Positions 1,245-7,612 of a DNA stretch of 41,032 nucleotides are shown here, piece by piece. The stretch's first letter is position 1. The number at the start of each line of letters is the position of its first letter. Position numbers and translations under genes: made by a program. The DNA is from a virus. Location of the stretch: positions 1-41,032 of the IMG/VR virus record IMGVR_UViG_3300028800_000028. One strand, given 5' to 3'. The notes under the pieces were generated by a model, which saw only the letters and a program-made list of their open reading frames with translations, was not told the origin of the DNA and made no database searches.

Positions 1245-1657
1245 AAGAGTTAAAAGGCGAGTGCTGGCTCTGGGCCAAAGGAATTATGGGTACCGGATAT
1301 GGTCAGCTCTTCGTCAGAGGTTCTAAGCCTTACAAAATGGTACGCGCTCATATAGCAGTGTATGAAGCCCTGGTCGGCCCAGTTCCTGAAGGACTGGAGC
1401 TAGACCACTTGTGTAGGGTTAGAAGATGTGTTAATCCCGACCACTTGGAGCCGGTAACACACCGAGAAAATGTGCTTAGAGGAACAGCTATAGCAAAGGC
1501 TGTAGCACACCAACGAGCTAAAACTCACTGTCCAAGAGGACACCCGTACAACAAGGAGAACACTTATTATCGGCCTGGAAATGGCGATAGAGGGTGTAAA
1601 ATCTGTAGACGTGCGGCAGTACGAAAGCATAAACTAATGTTAAAGGAGATTTCATAA
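1241..1657 (+). CDS. HNH homing endonuclease (HNH_3 type) between ATPase and SSB-like genes
   Basis: A 138-residue free-standing HNH endonuclease. The core is LDHLCRVRRCVNPDHLEPVT at about residues 54-73 (H-N-H metal site), followed by a zinc-knuckle region with CPRGH and CKICRR. Such proteins cut intronless alleles and copy themselves into neighbouring loci. It starts with GTG at 1241 overlapping the upstream stop (GTGA) and ends in TAATG with the next gene, so it is translated from the operon mRNA and shows no promoter of its own. It has inserted between two genes that normally sit together in a recombination module (inference). Confidence 0.88.
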   Translation: MKELKGECWLWAKGIMGTGYGQLFVRGSKPYKMVRAHIAVYEALVGPVPEGLELDHLCRVRRCVNPDHLEPVTHRENVLRGTAIAKAVAHQRAKTHCPRGHPYNKENTYYRPGNGDRGCKICRRAAVRKHKLMLKEIS

Positions 1658-2235
1658 TGGCAGATTCAAAAACAGCAGCATTACCTGATTGGCTACAAGA
1701 GGGCATTGACGGTTCAGAAAAAACTGAGGGTGGCGCAACCGGCTTCACGCCTGGCGCACACACCGTCCATATCGGCATGGCCGAGGCTACTAAGGACAGC
1801 AAAGACCGTGACATCATCAAGGTCATCGTGCTTGGTGACAATGACGAAGAGGGTGAGGCTACACTGTGGCTGCACACTGAGGGCGGCGCTAAAATGGCTG
1901 TCACCAAGGTCTTAGGTATTCTGGTACACAACACACCGGAAGATAAAAAGGCAACCATTAGCGAGTTCGGCAAGCGTGTATTCGCCGGTGTTAAAGAGCC
2001 TGGCGACGTTAAAGATGGGCTGATGCGTATTCTCAATGAAAAACTGACCGGCAAGGAAGCATTTATCTTTGCTGAGGCTCAAGAGAAATACTACACTACT
2101 AAGTACGTTGACCTCTGGCACTATGACCAGGGTAAGCGTCAACCGGCTGCTACGCCACAGACACACACTGTCGATGGTCTAGGCGAGGTTAAAGAAATAG
2201 AATTGGGCGAAGATGACCCATTCGCAACCGACTAA
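1657..2235 (+). CDS. DUF669/SSB-like phage protein
   Basis: A 192-residue protein with an AAAGGAGATTTCATAATG start context. The body contains an OB-like run of beta strands (residues about 30-75, TVHIGMAEATKDSKDRDIIKVIVLG) and the C-terminus is acidic and ends DDPFATD, similar to the acidic DDxPF tip by which SSB proteins recruit partners. Position between a Sak4-like ATPase and a YqaJ nuclease is the usual place for DUF669 or SSB-like proteins. The function as a single-strand binding protein is inferred from context and the tail, not from a decisive motif. Confidence 0.6.
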   Translation: MADSKTAALPDWLQEGIDGSEKTEGGATGFTPGAHTVHIGMAEATKDSKDRDIIKVIVLGDNDEEGEATLWLHTEGGAKMAVTKVLGILVHNTPEDKKATISEFGKRVFAGVKEPGDVKDGLMRILNEKLTGKEAFIFAEAQEKYYTTKYVDLWHYDQGKRQPAATPQTHTVDGLGEVKEIELGEDDPFATD

Positions 2236-2503
2236 AAACATAACCTTCAGTGCGGCAGGCGCTACGCTAACGTGCCCCTATTGCGAAAAGCAGGCGACCT
2301 ATCCGATAGGCAAGCTTGACCGCGAGGAGTGGCGCAAAGATGAGTACACCCGTGGCAAGTGGGTTTGCAAGGACTGTTACTGGAAGCCAGTACACCGAGC
2401 AACCACTCCGCCGCCGGTGGGTCACTTTCCGAGCCTGTCTAAAGAAGAACCAACAGAGGGGAAATCCGAGCTAGATACTTTTCTAGGGATGATAGATGAT
2501 TAG
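2213..2503 (+). CDS. Zinc-ribbon hypothetical protein, 96 aa
   Basis: A 96-residue protein overlapping the SSB-like gene by 23 bp. It has a treble of CPYC at residues 21-24 and CKDC at about 54-57, a typical four-cysteine zinc ribbon. The C-terminal third is acidic and ends ELDTFLGMIDD, again resembling an acidic recruitment tail. Such ribbons are common in small phage nucleic-acid-binding proteins. No specific function can be given. Confidence 0.7.
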   Translation: MTHSQPTKNITFSAAGATLTCPYCEKQATYPIGKLDREEWRKDEYTRGKWVCKDCYWKPVHRATTPPPVGHFPSLSKEEPTEGKSELDTFLGMIDD

Positions 2504-2570
2504 CCAGCCAACAATAGTCAAGAACGGTACGTTTACCATAACGCAATATACGTTGCTACATGGAGAGTAA
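2496..2570 (+). CDS. Possible 24-aa peptide
   Basis: An ATG inside the last codons of the zinc-ribbon gene opens 24 codons (MISQPTIVKNGTFTITQYTL...). The following gene starts 3 bases after its stop, with the ribosome site GGAGAG lying inside its last codons. The tight packing is the only support. Confidence 0.3.
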   Translation: MISQPTIVKNGTFTITQYTLLHGE

Positions 2571-2573
2571 GAA

Positions 2574-2678
2574 ATGAAGTGGATAGCCCTTTGTCGTGAT
2601 ATCATTTTAATAGTTCTGGGAATCGTGACTCTGGTAGGACTGGTCGCCTTCGCTATGGACTGGGTACAGATAGGATGA
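2574..2678 (+). CDS. Small single-span membrane peptide, 34 aa
   Basis: A 34-residue reading frame with a good ribosome site (GGAGAG, 7 nt before the ATG). Residues about 9-27 (DIILIVLGIVTLVGLVAFA) form one strongly hydrophobic helix, with lysine at position 2 and arginine at 8 suggesting the N-terminus stays in the cytoplasm. Tiny membrane proteins of this kind are frequent in phage early regions and can block superinfection or modify the envelope, but no function can be assigned. Confidence 0.55.
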   Translation: MKWIALCRDIILIVLGIVTLVGLVAFAMDWVQIG

Positions 2679-2685
2679 TGAGGAA

Positions 2686-2736
2686 ATGATGAAAAAAACA
2701 GCACTTGTGAGTGGATTTTCAGTATTACAGGTATAA
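2686..2736 (+). pseudogene. Displaced N-terminal remnant of the GDP-mannose dehydratase gene
   Basis: The frame reads MMKKTALVSGFSVLQV and stops. Its segment KTALVSGFS lines up with KCALVTGWS at the start of the dehydratase beginning at 3175, the nucleotide-binding strand and GxxG loop of the short-chain dehydrogenase fold. A start context (AGGA before ATGATG) is kept. Between the two copies lies an HNH homing endonuclease gene with its own promoter. The simplest reading is that the endonuclease cassette inserted after the first ~11 codons of the dehydratase gene and supplied a replacement 5' end. The break falls at about 2721. Confidence 0.6.
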
Positions 2737-2753
2737 CTTATGCCTGCTATAAT
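2725..2753 (+). promoter_or_regulatory. Leaderless promoter of HNH gene 2760
   Basis: TTACAG (2725-2730), 17-bp spacer, TATAAT (2748-2753) with the extended -10 TGC before it. Six bases separate the -10 box from the ATG at 2760, which puts the ATG at +1, so the mRNA should be leaderless. No ribosome site is present upstream. Confidence 0.75.
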
Positions 2754-2759
2754 TAATAT

Positions 2760-3182
2760 ATGCCCAAGAAGATAATATTTAAGAATAAAATATGTTCCAA
2801 CTGTGGCAGATCCTTTAACCGAAGTTTGTCAAAAGATAATAGGTTAGAAGCTACAACAGACTTTCGTATTCGTAAGTTCTGCTCCCGTAAATGTTATGGC
2901 GAATTCAATACGGGAGAACACCACTGGCTATGGAAGGGCGGCACAAGAACTCGACCTGACGGCTATATCCGCGATAGCAGAACCGACCAATATATCCACC
3001 GGAAAGTCATGGAAGATCACCTAGGCAGGAAACTTACCCACGAAGAACACATACATCACATAGACGGAAATAAAGGAAATAACTCTGTAAATAATTTAAT
3101 GATTGTCAGCAATAGCGAACATCGTAAGCTCGAATGTTTATTCGCTAAGAGAGACAGCCTAGGAAGGTTTAGTATTGACTAA
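2760..3182 (+). CDS. HNH homing endonuclease inserted before the dehydratase gene
   Basis: A 140-residue endonuclease. The N-terminal part holds a zinc finger (CSNCGRSF at about 12-19 and CSRKC at about 41-45), and the C-terminal part the HNH core HIHHIDGNKGNNSVNNLMIVSNSEH (about residues 97-121), the form common in NUMOD-type phage HNH proteins. It has its own leaderless promoter, overlaps the dehydratase start at 3175 by 8 bp, and carries the ribosome site GGAAGG for that gene inside its last codons. The preceding remnant at 2686-2736 indicates that it interrupted the dehydratase gene. Confidence 0.88.
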   Translation: MPKKIIFKNKICSNCGRSFNRSLSKDNRLEATTDFRIRKFCSRKCYGEFNTGEHHWLWKGGTRTRPDGYIRDSRTDQYIHRKVMEDHLGRKLTHEEHIHHIDGNKGNNSVNNLMIVSNSEHRKLECLFAKRDSLGRFSID

Positions 3183-4215
3183 TATGAGTAAATGTGCTTT
3201 AGTAACTGGCTGGAGTGGGCAAGACGGCACGTTTTTAACGCGCCTGCTGCTTGACCAAGGCTATACAGTCATTGGATTGGTTAGGCGCATTAGCACCGAG
3301 CCACCATATCGCGTGCGTGGCAAGTTCGACTTCACCAAGGAGCTGGAACGTGGGCAACTGGTGCTAGAGGCAGGCGACTTGCTCTCCTCAGCTTCATTAA
3401 ATCGCATAGTCCAAAAACATTTTCCAAGCGAGATTTATAATCTGGCAGCGCAGAGTGATGTAGCCATAAGCTTTAAGGAGCCAGAGTCTACGATGCAGGC
3501 TGACTTTATAGGCTTGGTTAATCTGGTGACTGCACTTGAACTAATGAAAGATTGGCGTTGGAGATTGTATCAGGCCAGCACCAGTGAGATGTTCGGCGAT
3601 AGGCCACACGGCACGGTGCTGGGCGTAAACACGCCGCTCACACCTAACTCACCCTATGCTATCGCCAAGACAGCGGCACACCACTATATGCAAATGAAAC
3701 GTAGAGAGGGCCTATTTTGTGCTAATGGTATCTTATTCAACCATGAGTCCGAGATTCGCGGTGGCAATTTTGTCACCCAGAAAATAGCTCGTGGAGTCAT
3801 TGAGTGGCAACGTACTGGTAAGCCGCTGGAGCTGGGGAACCTGGATGCAGTACGTGACTGGGGCTATGCCGGTCAATTTGTAAAAGCCATGTGGCTCATA
3901 CTTCAACAAGAAACCCCTGGTGATTACATTATCGGTACAGGTATTTCTCACACAGTACGCCAATTCGTAGAAGCGGCATTTAAGGCTATTGGCCTAAAAG
4001 TGGAGTGGAATCAACAAGAGGGCATAAATGAAGTTGGCTACGTCAACGGCCATGAAGCTATCAAGATTAACCCGGAGTTCTACCGACCTGTAGACGTGAC
4101 CTACCTACAAGCAGATATTACAGAAGCAAAGAAAGTACTTGGCTGGAACCCAGATATGAGTTTTGAAGAATTAGTCAAGATTATGGTTGATTCCCAGAAA
4201 GGAGTTTACATATGA
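3175..4215 (+). CDS. gmd: GDP-mannose 4,6-dehydratase
   Basis: A 346-residue short-chain dehydrogenase that converts GDP-mannose to GDP-4-keto-6-deoxymannose, the first step to GDP-fucose, rhamnose or perosamine. Visible motifs are TGWSGQDG (residues 11-18, NADP site), STSEMFG (135-141), the catalytic YxxxK at 161-165, NHESxxRGGNFVT (about 189-201) and RDWGYAGQFVKAMW. Length is normal for the family. Start: a TTG at 3175 sits 7 nt after GGAAGG, while the ATG at 3184 is too far from it, so TTG is preferred. The 3' end overlaps the exonuclease gene by 4 bp (ATGA). A sugar-nucleotide enzyme in a small phage suggests modification of a glycan on host surface or virion. Confidence 0.93.
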   Translation: MTNMSKCALVTGWSGQDGTFLTRLLLDQGYTVIGLVRRISTEPPYRVRGKFDFTKELERGQLVLEAGDLLSSASLNRIVQKHFPSEIYNLAAQSDVAISFKEPESTMQADFIGLVNLVTALELMKDWRWRLYQASTSEMFGDRPHGTVLGVNTPLTPNSPYAIAKTAAHHYMQMKRREGLFCANGILFNHESEIRGGNFVTQKIARGVIEWQRTGKPLELGNLDAVRDWGYAGQFVKAMWLILQQETPGDYIIGTGISHTVRQFVEAAFKAIGLKVEWNQQEGINEVGYVNGHEAIKINPEFYRPVDVTYLQADITEAKKVLGWNPDMSFEELVKIMVDSQKGVYI

Positions 4216-4886
4216 TTCGGTTCTACCATTTCGACCAGCGCTCTGAAAAGTGGCACGCTATGCGTCGAGACAAGTGGAGTGGGTCTGTAGCAATTAAATT
4301 GCTCCAGGGCGCTAAAGTTCCACCAGTCTCTGACCCGACTTACGACAATAAATATATGCAGCGTGGCCGCATCCTTGAGCCACTAGCTGCTGAAGCGTAT
4401 GAGAAAAAGACTGGGCATAAGATGGCTCACTCCGGGCTGGTAACCAACTCGAAGTACAAGCACGCCTGCTACTCGCCGGATGGTATTGAGGAAGATATGA
4501 TTGACGAGATTAAGTGCGTGAATGTCGAGAAGCACATGGCTATCGGCAGCGGTGCCATGCCCATCCCTACCGAGTGGATTGCACAGACTCACTTCGGCAT
4601 CGTCATTACCGAGCTGCACAAAATCCGGCTCATCCTGTATAACCCCGATGCTGAGATACCGCTATTTATTCTGCCTATCGTCGTGCGCCAGGAAACGCTT
4701 GAAAACATTATTGCGCGTCTGATTGCTACGGCTCCTAAAGGTCGTCCAAGTGCCATCCGTGCCAAGCGCAAATACGTTGAGGACAACCCATTGAAGGTGC
4801 GCGAGAATCGCCGCAGGGCTTACCTAAAGAGCAAGCAGCATGAACATAAAAGTAGACCTGCCCGAACTCAATCCAAATCAGCGTAA
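4212..4886 (+). CDS. YqaJ-family (lambda exonuclease-type) nuclease
   Basis: A 224-residue PD-(D/E)xK nuclease. The N-terminus has RSEKWHAMR (10-18); catalytic residues are E56 in GRILEPLA, D90 in SPDG and the E99-x-K101 pair in IDEIK. This family degrades one strand of duplex ends to make 3' tails for annealing. With the Sak4-like ATPase and SSB-like protein it makes a complete phage recombination set, interrupted by the two endonuclease genes and the dehydratase. A basic tail (residues 180-224, rich in K and R) may bind DNA. Confidence 0.9.
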   Translation: MIRFYHFDQRSEKWHAMRRDKWSGSVAIKLLQGAKVPPVSDPTYDNKYMQRGRILEPLAAEAYEKKTGHKMAHSGLVTNSKYKHACYSPDGIEEDMIDEIKCVNVEKHMAIGSGAMPIPTEWIAQTHFGIVITELHKIRLILYNPDAEIPLFILPIVVRQETLENIIARLIATAPKGRPSAIRAKRKYVEDNPLKVRENRRRAYLKSKQHEHKSRPARTQSKSA

Positions 4887-5882: not shown

Positions 5883-6722
5883 ATGTACGATATCAACAGC
5901 AATCTCCTCACCAAAAGCGGCCTAAGCGCCGGTCAGTTACAGGCAGCCGAGGATGCTATGAAGCCTGACAACGGGTATCACCCTGATTTTTGGCAGGCAC
6001 TTGTAGATACCGAGAACGCCTACGACTTGAACGCGCTATTTATTCTTGCTCACGCCGACGTTGAGAGCGCCCACGGCACCAGCTACTACGCTACCACTCG
6101 CAACAACCTGTTCGGCTTCAATGCCGTAGACAGCGACCCTGATTTGGCGAGCGCTTACGCTTCACAGGCCGTTAGTGTACACGACTACGCTGACTTCCTA
6201 GCCACCCACTATCTCAAAGAGGGTGAGGAATACTGGGTCGGTGCTGCTACCCCTCACGGTATTTTCGTTCACTATTCCAGCTCGCACGATGCTGAGGCTG
6301 AAGAAGTCGTTGGTATTATGAACACGCTCGCTGGTCATGTTGGCACTACGCCAGTGGCTACACCTCCTGTTCACAGCACCGGCAACACTCACACTGTTGT
6401 CAGCGGCGAAAACATGAGCGCAATTGCTGCTGCTAATGGCATGAGCCTGGGGCAGCTCGAAGCATTGAACCCACAAGCTGGACACCCAGCCGGTAACTTT
6501 GGTGTTATCTGGCCTGGCGATACGCTAAGCCTGGGAGGTGGACAACCTCCAGCAACAAACAGCCCTGTCTATCACACGGTAGTCAGCGGCGATAATCTCA
6601 GCGCAATTGCCGAAGCAAACGGCGAGAGCCTTGCTACGATTGAGGCCATGAACCCTAACGCTGGTCACCCAGCAGGTAACTACGGCAACATCTGGCCTGG
6701 CGACCAAGTGAGGGTCAAGTAA
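5883..6722 (+). CDS. Endolysin: glucosaminidase (GH73-like) with two LysM repeats
   Basis: A 279-residue lysis enzyme. The N-terminal ~150 residues form a beta-N-acetylglucosaminidase domain, with LFILAHADVESAHGTS (catalytic Glu in VESAHG) and NNLFGFNA, typical of the GH73/glucosaminidase fold. Two LysM repeats follow (about 165-215 and 230-279), each starting HTVVSGxNxSAIAxANG and ending NPxAGHPAGNxGxIWPGD; the repeats are close copies. No signal peptide is seen, so release needs a holin. Ribosome site AAAGGA precedes the ATG. A TATAAT at 5862-5867 may add local transcription. Confidence 0.92.
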   Translation: MYDINSNLLTKSGLSAGQLQAAEDAMKPDNGYHPDFWQALVDTENAYDLNALFILAHADVESAHGTSYYATTRNNLFGFNAVDSDPDLASAYASQAVSVHDYADFLATHYLKEGEEYWVGAATPHGIFVHYSSSHDAEAEEVVGIMNTLAGHVGTTPVATPPVHSTGNTHTVVSGENMSAIAAANGMSLGQLEALNPQAGHPAGNFGVIWPGDTLSLGGGQPPATNSPVYHTVVSGDNLSAIAEANGESLATIEAMNPNAGHPAGNYGNIWPGDQVRVK

Positions 6723-6799
6723 TGACGGTATCTCTTTGGGTTGTAGTAGTGCTGGTAGTTTTAGCAGTGTTCGGGGTGATTTACATACTTAAGAAGTAA
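6722..6799 (+). CDS. 25-aa membrane peptide next to endolysin (holin-type candidate)
   Basis: A 25-residue peptide made almost entirely of one hydrophobic helix (residues 3-22, VSLWVVVVLVVLAVFGVIYIL) with a KK end. The ATG overlaps the endolysin stop (TAATG). Such tiny single-span peptides beside an endolysin may act as pinholin or antiholin, while the gene at 7349 looks like the main holin. No experimental family is recognised. Confidence 0.6.
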   Translation: MTVSLWVVVVLVVLAVFGVIYILKK

Positions 6800-6808
6800 G
6801 GGGAAATT

Positions 6809-7087
6809 ATGGACGATTCAGATAAGCAAAAAGACTTAACATTCGGTGGTAAGGCAGCCGCTGTCAGTTTCAACCCCAGTGCGGTGCCTGAAGTGGACGC
6901 GATTAAGACAGCAGCCGCTAATTTGATTGATGCCATTACTGGCCCATCAGGTGAGAAGATTCTGCCTGAACTGCAAGAGGCTGGCACTAAGCTTGACGGC
7001 GAAGTAGTAGCTATGCGTAAACTGGCCCAGCGCAAGGCTCAGGAAGCCTCAATGTGGGCAGTAAAAGCCGCTACGTGGCACCTGTAA
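6809..7087 (+). CDS. acb2-like: Acb2/Tad1-hairpin family protein (anti-CBASS/anti-Thoeris sponge)
   Basis: A 92-residue, all-helical protein with the hallmark segments of the Acb2/Tad1 hairpin family: LTFGGKAAAVSFNPSAVPEV at residues 10-29, a long first helix (30-45) and the closing AQEASMWAVKAATW at about 77-90. Known members assemble into oligomers that trap cyclic nucleotide alarms of CBASS and, in relatives, Thoeris, so defence effectors are not switched on. Ribosome site AAGGGG precedes the ATG. Its stop overlaps the Tad2 start (TAATG), so the two sponges are made together. Family assignment is by recalled consensus, not a profile search. Confidence 0.75.
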   Translation: MDDSDKQKDLTFGGKAAAVSFNPSAVPEVDAIKTAAANLIDAITGPSGEKILPELQEAGTKLDGEVVAMRKLAQRKAQEASMWAVKAATWHL

Positions 7088-7347
7088 TGGATTTTTCAGA
7101 AGCACTAAAAGAGTTACGAAATGGCCGCATCCTTTATAGGACTGGCTGGAACTCGACTGACCAATTCATTTACTTAGTGCCGCAAGGCAGCTATCCTCCT
7201 ACAACAGAGGTAGGCAAGACAATTAACAACGGCGGTGATGTGCCTTATGGCCCGTATCTCGCCATTAAATCAGTCAGTGGTCTAGTATATCCGTGGCTCG
7301 CAAGCCAATCGGATTTACTGAGCGACGACTGGGAAATGAGGGACTAG
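7087..7347 (+). CDS. tad2: Tad2 (DUF2829) anti-Thoeris sponge protein
   Basis: An 86-residue DUF2829 protein. The signature is complete: MDFSEALKELRNGRILYRTGW (1-21), FIYLVPQG (27-34), PYLAIKSVSGLVYPWLASQSDLLSDDWE (57-83). DUF2829 members were identified as Thoeris anti-defence 2 (Tad2), which bind glycocyclic ADP-ribose signals and, in some members, CBASS cyclic nucleotides. The ATG at 7087 is chosen over an upstream in-frame GTG-region start because it matches the family N-terminus and overlaps the Acb2-like stop. Coupled anti-defence pair with the preceding gene. Confidence 0.92.
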   Translation: MDFSEALKELRNGRILYRTGWNSTDQFIYLVPQGSYPPTTEVGKTINNGGDVPYGPYLAIKSVSGLVYPWLASQSDLLSDDWEMRD

Positions 7348-7348
7348 C

Positions 7349-7612
7349 ATGATCATCACAGGTAACGAGAAATCATTTTTGGGCGGCCTAGGAGCCGGTA
7401 TAACCGCGTTTGCAGGCCAGCTGTCCGTTAGTGGCAAGTTGGACGTTAAAACGGTAGCATGGAGCGTAGGAGCATGGGTAGCAACCCACCTCTTCGTGTA
7501 CTACACGACAAATACGCCCGTAGTTGATAAGGTAGTAAGTGAAGTAGTCGCTGCTGCTGACGGAACAACGACATTTGCAGACCCAGCTGGGCCTACGCCG
7601 CCGGCTGCCTAA
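7349..7612 (+). CDS. Holin, two-helix type
   Basis: An 87-residue membrane protein with two hydrophobic segments: residues about 9-25 (SFLGGLGAGITAFAGQL) and 35-55 (VKTVAWSVGAWVATHLFVYYTTN), then a Pro/Ala-rich tail. The small-residue first helix, the THxxVYYTxN end of the second helix and the position last in the lysis block match small holins of Gram-positive phages. It would open the membrane for the endolysin. A strong terminator follows 17 bp later. Confidence 0.72.
   Translation: MIITGNEKSFLGGLGAGITAFAGQLSVSGKLDVKTVAWSVGAWVATHLFVYYTTNTPVVDKVVSEVVAAADGTTTFADPAGPTPPAA

Follow-up and report, generated by a model that had tools for sequence, protein, structure and literature searches.

Endonuclease genes within conserved genes usually survive only by means of a self-splicing intron or an intein. 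The mORFs of fungal mitochondria, which occur in atp6 of Allomyces macrogynus and in atp6, atp9, cox2 and nad3 of Glomus sp., consist of an endonuclease gene and a foreign gene end inserted in the coding sequence, the native end being displaced beyond the endonuclease (PMC3630166). The two copies of the atp6 end agree better as protein (91% of amino acids) than as DNA (63.5% of nucleotides) (PMC3630166). The ShiLan domain of mycobacteriophage DNA methylases is a homing insertion that conceals an HNH endonuclease gene and is neither an intron nor an intein (PMC11855218, PMC9957025). Its authors noted 11 similar residues as a possible sign of an intron, an explanation that they rejected (PMC11855218). 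In T4-like phages, free-standing homing endonucleases include mobE in nrdA of Aeh1 and mobA in gene 60 of T4 (PMC2988022, PMC3014915), and co-conversion of the flanks is a known consequence of homing (PMC2988022).

The locus considered here lies on a 41-kb viral contig from IMG/VR (IMGVR_UViG_3300028800_000028), analysed over its whole length of 41,032 nucleotides and referred to as the window. In an accessory slot between an SSB-like gene and a YqaJ/RecE-like exonuclease gene, a short frame is followed by an HNH_3 endonuclease gene and by a gene for a GDP-mannose-4,6-dehydratase-like protein (GMD). With a probability of roughly 60%, as estimated from the sequence, an HNH_3 gene of the homing type invaded the extreme 5' end of this phage GMD-like gene, bringing a second start and leaving one start stranded.

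As in the mORFs, the endonuclease lies between two diverged copies of the same host-gene end, here at positions 2689-2721 and 3184-3216. The mORFs replace the 3' end and carry LAGLIDADG or GIY-YIG enzymes, whereas here the 5' end of a phage gene is concerned, the enzyme is of the HNH_3 type and only 11 codons are duplicated. Judged by its sequence, the element works like a mORF hybrid but, as an HNH_3 element at a 5' end, is no member of that group; by analogy, its outcome is the mirror image of the fungal one, with the 5' end in place of the 3' end. The T4-like systems share with the window the HNH gene beside or inside its target, the co-conversion of the flanks and the splitting of genes by insertion. 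There, however, the gene is split into two coding parts, and the available parts of these sources describe no duplicated recoded start.

Organization of the locus

The left flank of the slot is formed by the SSB-like gene and a small neighbour (1657-2503). A plus-strand gene for a 34-aa membrane mini-protein (2574-2678) follows, 74% identical to its counterpart in the closest relative, L082 (positions 1850-1954). This is the last gene that the window and L082 have in common before the accessory slot, and the DNA similarity between them stops at its stop codon. The left outer border is a gap of 7 nt between the mini-gene and the short frame, which contains a Shine-Dalgarno-like GAGGA (2680-2684, plus strand) placed 4 nt 5' of the ATG at 2689. 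The short frame itself (2686-2736, plus strand) comprises 16 codons, the putative stranded start MMKKTALVSGFS being extended by VLQV and a stop codon.

The stretch of 495 nt from the stranded start to the GQDG motif (2722-3216, plus strand) is composed of a spacer, the HNH gene (2760-3182, plus strand; 140 aa) and the 11 start codons in their second version; it is delimited by the codon-for-codon alignment of the two starts and by GMD relatives that are continuous at this point and have no HNH gene. Each edge of the HNH segment bears the hexamer AGTATT (2721-2726 and 3171-3176), which could be a junction microhomology or a chance repeat.

The GMD-like gene (3184-4215, plus strand) is apparently intact. 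Its frame from the ATG at 3184 reads MSKCALVTGWSGQDGTFL and begins with MSKCALVTGWS, the second version of the 11 codons (3184-3216), followed by GQDGTFL, with GQDG at 3217-3228. The product matches the Pfam family GDP_Man_Dehyd (PF16363) with 330 bits, keeps the nucleotide-binding motif and aligns at full length with GMDs of solved structure (5uzh, E=1e-78). Its score against the TIGR01472 equivalog, 339.5 bits, is below the cut-off of 415, so the exact substrate is not assured. An alternative start, TTG at 3175, stands nine bases before the ATG, with AGGAAGG (3161-3167, plus strand, within the 3' end of the HNH gene) at the proper spacing as a possible ribosome site. Translation of GMD from this TTG, or coupled to the HNH stop (TAA 3180-3182, ATG 3184), is possible.

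The slot is bounded on the right by the YqaJ/RecE-like exonuclease gene (4212-4886, plus strand; 89% identity in L082); its ATG and the stop codon of GMD overlap by 4 nt. At both of its outer ends the interrupted GMD resembles a single gene, and a displaced GMD body is not seen 3' of it in the window sequence. The locus is known from one metagenomic contig and may be an assembly chimera of two strains.

The short frame as a probable dehydratase start

The short frame reads MMKKTALVSGFSVLQV, with ATG codons at 2686 and 2689 and a TAA at 2734-2736, and within KKTALVSGFSVLQV the 11 codons that match GMD are those at 2689-2721. The stranded and the working start align codon for codon. Seven of the 11 residues (M-K-A-L-V-G-S) are identical but only 17 of the 33 nucleotides, and five of the six shared residues other than Met are written with different codons. 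An earlier note on this DNA had described the 16-codon frame with its own ribosome site and had held it equivalent to the dehydratase start; the sequence, with GAGGA at 2680-2684, confirms the former, and the latter is borne out by this alignment and by a profile built from GMD N-termini up to the GQDG motif.

Among the 48,565 stop-free 11-mers of the window, this profile ranks the short frame second, after the GMD start itself. When the same profile is run over 139,387 start-codon 11-mers outside GMD genes in all loci, only three others that are not followed by GxDG score as high; they are near-identical (MKKVxLVTGAT) and belong to other Rossmann-type, dehydrogenase-like starts. The chance of such a match in the gap is about 1 in 2,000 or less, assuming an estimated two dozen start codons. 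The match is limited to 11 codons and ends exactly at the codon preceding GQDG.

The residue before Ser/Thr-GQDG provides a further point of comparison. Among 131 GMD starts, most have Ile or Val here, all six GMDs closest to that of the window (L002/L184, L185, L186, L187, L102 and L103) have Tyr or Phe, and none of the 125 others has Tyr or Phe. The short frame has Phe at this place and the window GMD has Trp. In members of the subfamily without an HNH gene, the equivalent [F/Y]T residues run continuously into GQDG. At the DNA level, the short frame shares on average 17.9 of 33 nucleotides with 161 GMD starts, and the real start 16.1.

The resemblance could also be fortuitous, the upstream frame being a leader peptide or the start of a lost gene with no relation to GMD. 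The frame has only 16 codons, MKKTAL is a common protein start, and the two HNH flanks, compared without a profile, show no significant resemblance (z = 2.1). The significance rests, because of this last value, on the family profile together with the position, the frame and the ribosome site. The rarity of the profile score, the aromatic residue otherwise specific to the closest subfamily, the end of the match exactly at GQDG and the higher mean identity to GMD starts make a chance origin very improbable. The short frame is thus very probably a genuine GMD start.

A self-splicing element would join MMKKTALVSGF to SGQDG, and the result would read as a perfect GMD start; one register even obeys the U/G rule, with exon 1 ending in U and the intron ending in G (2718/2719 and 3213/3214). 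However, only about 70 of the 495 nt lie outside the HNH gene, the folding is like that of shuffled sequence (z = -0.22) and the complete downstream start would be superfluous. Rfam gives no group I or group II core, either at the gathering threshold or at E up to 10, and a group I intron was rejected on the lack of its conserved catalytic RNA core. An intein is excluded by the stop codon that follows VLQV. Splicing of either kind is hardly credible here.

The HNH gene and its association with dehydratase genes

The HNH gene is assigned by Pfam to HNH_3 (PF13392; 39.8 bits, cut-off 24.8), in agreement with PHROGs. Its product carries an N-terminal CxxC...CxxxC and an intact HHIDGN..NN..NL..SEH motif, encoded from 3054 onward. 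There is no Shine-Dalgarno sequence before the ORF at 2760-3182. A promoter-like ATTACA-18-TATAAT with an extended -10 TG (2724-2753, plus strand) is a consensus match only, 1.9 such sites being expected by chance per shuffled region. With it, transcription would begin at the HNH ATG and the transcript would be leaderless. The element TGCTATAAT (window 2748-2760) ends 6 nt before this ATG, as in leaderless transcripts.

Among 2.9 million viral contigs, the best relative of the window HNH is found in a different phage, L084 (IMGVR_UViG_3300020045_005352), with 45% identity; the next relatives are far weaker (bit score of about 78, against 109). In L084 the HNH gene stands directly upstream of a GMD gene and overlaps its start codon by 18 nt, and the two GMDs share 43% identity. 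The only other fetched HNH locus with any GMD is L080, where it lies 1.2 kb away. The HNH-GMD pairing thus recurs in unrelated phages, as is predicted for a homing enzyme with a GMD target. Both in the window and in L084 the HNH gene adjoins the GMD start. Unlike the window, L084 has no stranded GMD start upstream, and its HNH gene is placed cleanly between two genes. Over the 11 codons, the L084 GMD start ranks 7th of 161 in similarity to the second start of the window and is not especially alike; a conserved HNH/GMD junction does not stand out between the two against the other GMD starts.

With its intact motif, its place outside any intron or intein and its patchy occurrence among relatives, the window HNH is probably a free-standing enzyme of the homing type. 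A second HNH_3 gene that looks unrelated to it is present at 1241-1657, and its GTG overlaps the stop of a Sak4-like ATPase gene. At the same position L082 has an ORF of 110 aa instead, and L267 has a 49% identical relative upstream of the ATPase. A different HNH gene is found in L082 just 5' of the membrane mini-gene. This region is an HNH hot spot.

Relatives of the locus

By means of the SSB-like gene, 23 relatives of the locus were found. The slot between this gene and the exonuclease is hypervariable across them, and both GMD and the window HNH gene are absent from all 23, GMD being an accessory gene in this phage group. L082 keeps the membrane mini-gene, but where the window has the stub, the HNH gene and GMD it carries two different small ORFs.

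The accessory nature of GMD, together with the complete GMD directly downstream of the HNH gene in L084, would suit an arrival of both genes as one cassette. In that case a whole foreign GMD would have replaced, or landed in, an older one and left no more of it than the first 11 codons, with no rewriting in place. No remnant of an older GMD body is found downstream, and the tight overlap of the GMD stop with the exonuclease looks resident, which makes such a cassette quite improbable.

IMG/VR (2.9 million viral contigs, from which near-identical records may be left out) did not yield the HNH-free allele KKTALVSGFSGQDG. A search with the exact stub DNA gave no HNH-free allele of the locus either, and a degenerate search with ALVSGFSGQDG returned two other GMDs of the subfamily and no allele of this locus. 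Searches with GQDGTFLT, and for relatives by the exonuclease and by the SSB-like gene, found none with a GMD at the locus. In the same searches, with the same possible omission of near-identical records, no donor allele was found.

The earlier note had proposed that the HNH gene invaded the dehydratase gene and that a second 5' end arose with it. In its favour are the short frame as a very probable GMD 5' end, the end of its match before GQDG, the pairing in L084 and the ShiLan parallel; the allele that it predicted, an HNH-free GMD running from the upstream version into GQDG, is missing from IMG/VR, and this continuity is seen only in the [F/Y]T residues of the close subfamily. A relative that lacks the HNH gene and still has the short frame would speak against the proposal, and none was seen: the 23 loci have neither GMD nor the window HNH gene, and L082 is also devoid of the short frame.

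Parallel with the ShiLan insertion and polarity of the copies

The ShiLan HNH is homologous to that of the window, with 35-37% identity over about 110 aa (E of about 1e-11 to 1e-9). Methylases that are not invaded read LK-PAFEPIVVARKPL, whereas ShiLan reads LK-PSYEPVCVAVKPY, then the HNH insertion and then TAFEPIVVARKPL (L256, 1391-2040; JN020143.1). The upstream ShiLan copy is identical to the native DNA at 16-18 of 39 nucleotides and the downstream copy at 32-33 of 39. By this comparison, PSYEPVCVAVKPY is the foreign spelling and TAFEPIVVARKPL the native one, of about 13 target codons. In the ShiLan literature, the 13-codon copy borne by the element has apparently not been read as a patch for the gene.

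The two insertions have in common the absence of an intron or intein and a diverged copy of target codons at the edge. As related elements in different genes and hosts, they share the flanking-copy layout. On the other hand, the ShiLan insertion lies mid-gene, its host frame is open throughout and the foreign copy is upstream, whereas in the window the TAA at 2734-2736 ends the frame.

Transferred to the window, the ShiLan polarity would mean that the upstream copy came with the element and that the downstream MSKCALVTGWS is native. The DNA similarity to the 161 GMD starts favours neither copy, both being about equally distant from known GMDs, and the downstream copy agrees a little more closely with the codon usage. 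The upstream copy, however, has its own start, a ribosome site and an operon-like spacing after the preceding gene, and its Phe fits the GMD subfamily better than Trp. The ribosome site and the operon spacing would argue for a native upstream copy, and the ShiLan layout for a native downstream copy; the ShiLan-like polarity is, on balance, unlikely. If an HNH-free GMD of this locus began with MMKKTALVSGFSGQDGTFL, the downstream start would be the imported one; if it began with MSKCALVTGWSGQDG, the polarity would be that of ShiLan.

A scan of 62 HNH loci for duplicated flanks, which lacks power for copies of 11 codons, returned only two tandem inteins in L249 and noise. In L249 (IMGVR_UViG_3300050119_000174, 1292-4585), one long ORF contains two intein-like segments in tandem, ACLVAGTFIETDRGQ and ACLPGDTLISTDRGQ, and each of them has an overlapping HNH gene in a different frame (2917-3510 and 3793-4521). 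In the Streptococcus phage Javan616 (L257, 679-3064), a lysin gene is split around a related HNH, with exon-like ends ...WGKRGQSAG and GGHTGIF...; neither a duplicated edge nor an Rfam intron hit was found in this lysin gene. Owing to the missing duplication, the Javan616 HNH is judged intron-like, and the split is probably due to an unrecognised intron. In L271, a Dcm-type cytosine methylase ORF (6382-7461) overlaps a frame of 182 codons on the same strand in another reading frame (6551-7096), which has no NCBIfam match.

Possible origin of the arrangement

Two differently spelled versions of the same 11 codons bound the insertion, and therefore the invading DNA, or its repair, would have supplied the second GMD start. 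In the preferred reading, that of an invaded GMD 5' end, the insertion point would be the codons that immediately precede GQDG, the conserved NAD(P)-binding motif, and the enzyme would cut the resident GMD near the codons of this motif. The break would then be repaired from a phage in which, as in L084, the HNH gene immediately precedes the phage's own GMD. On the right side, recombination would take place inside GMD and import the donor start. On the left side, the ends would be joined illegitimately, without homology, at TTTTCA/G, and the resident start would be left stranded. Subsequently, GMD would be read from the second start, through coupling to the HNH stop or from the TTG at 3175. The recoded start, with its identity of 17/33 nt, may plausibly block re-cutting. 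We infer in this manner the cleavage site, the direction of transfer, the expression and the block of re-cutting by the recoded start.

Biological meaning

The principle is already known from fungal mitochondria, and what is new is that a phage shows it at a 5' end, where the stranded start can still be seen. ShiLan carries the same principle, unrecognised as such in its literature. By analogy, this locus and ShiLan together suggest that phages also use the fungal mitochondrial route, in which the invader cuts off part of a gene and itself provides the substitute.

It may tentatively be supposed, although it is rather doubtful, that HNH_3 elements of this group, found in unrelated phages in GMD and in the ShiLan methylases, are as a rule accompanied on their travels by recoded edge codons of their target. 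If so, the patch would at once restore the invaded gene, with neither an intron nor an intein, and abolish the recognition site. This would be a third, splicing-free way in which a homing endonuclease is tolerated in a conserved gene. Homing would then be a direct way of building hybrid phage genes and would explain some of the orphan mini-ORFs that stand before genes. For this uncharacterised HNH clade, it would also provide a testable target, the 5' end of GMD at GQDG.
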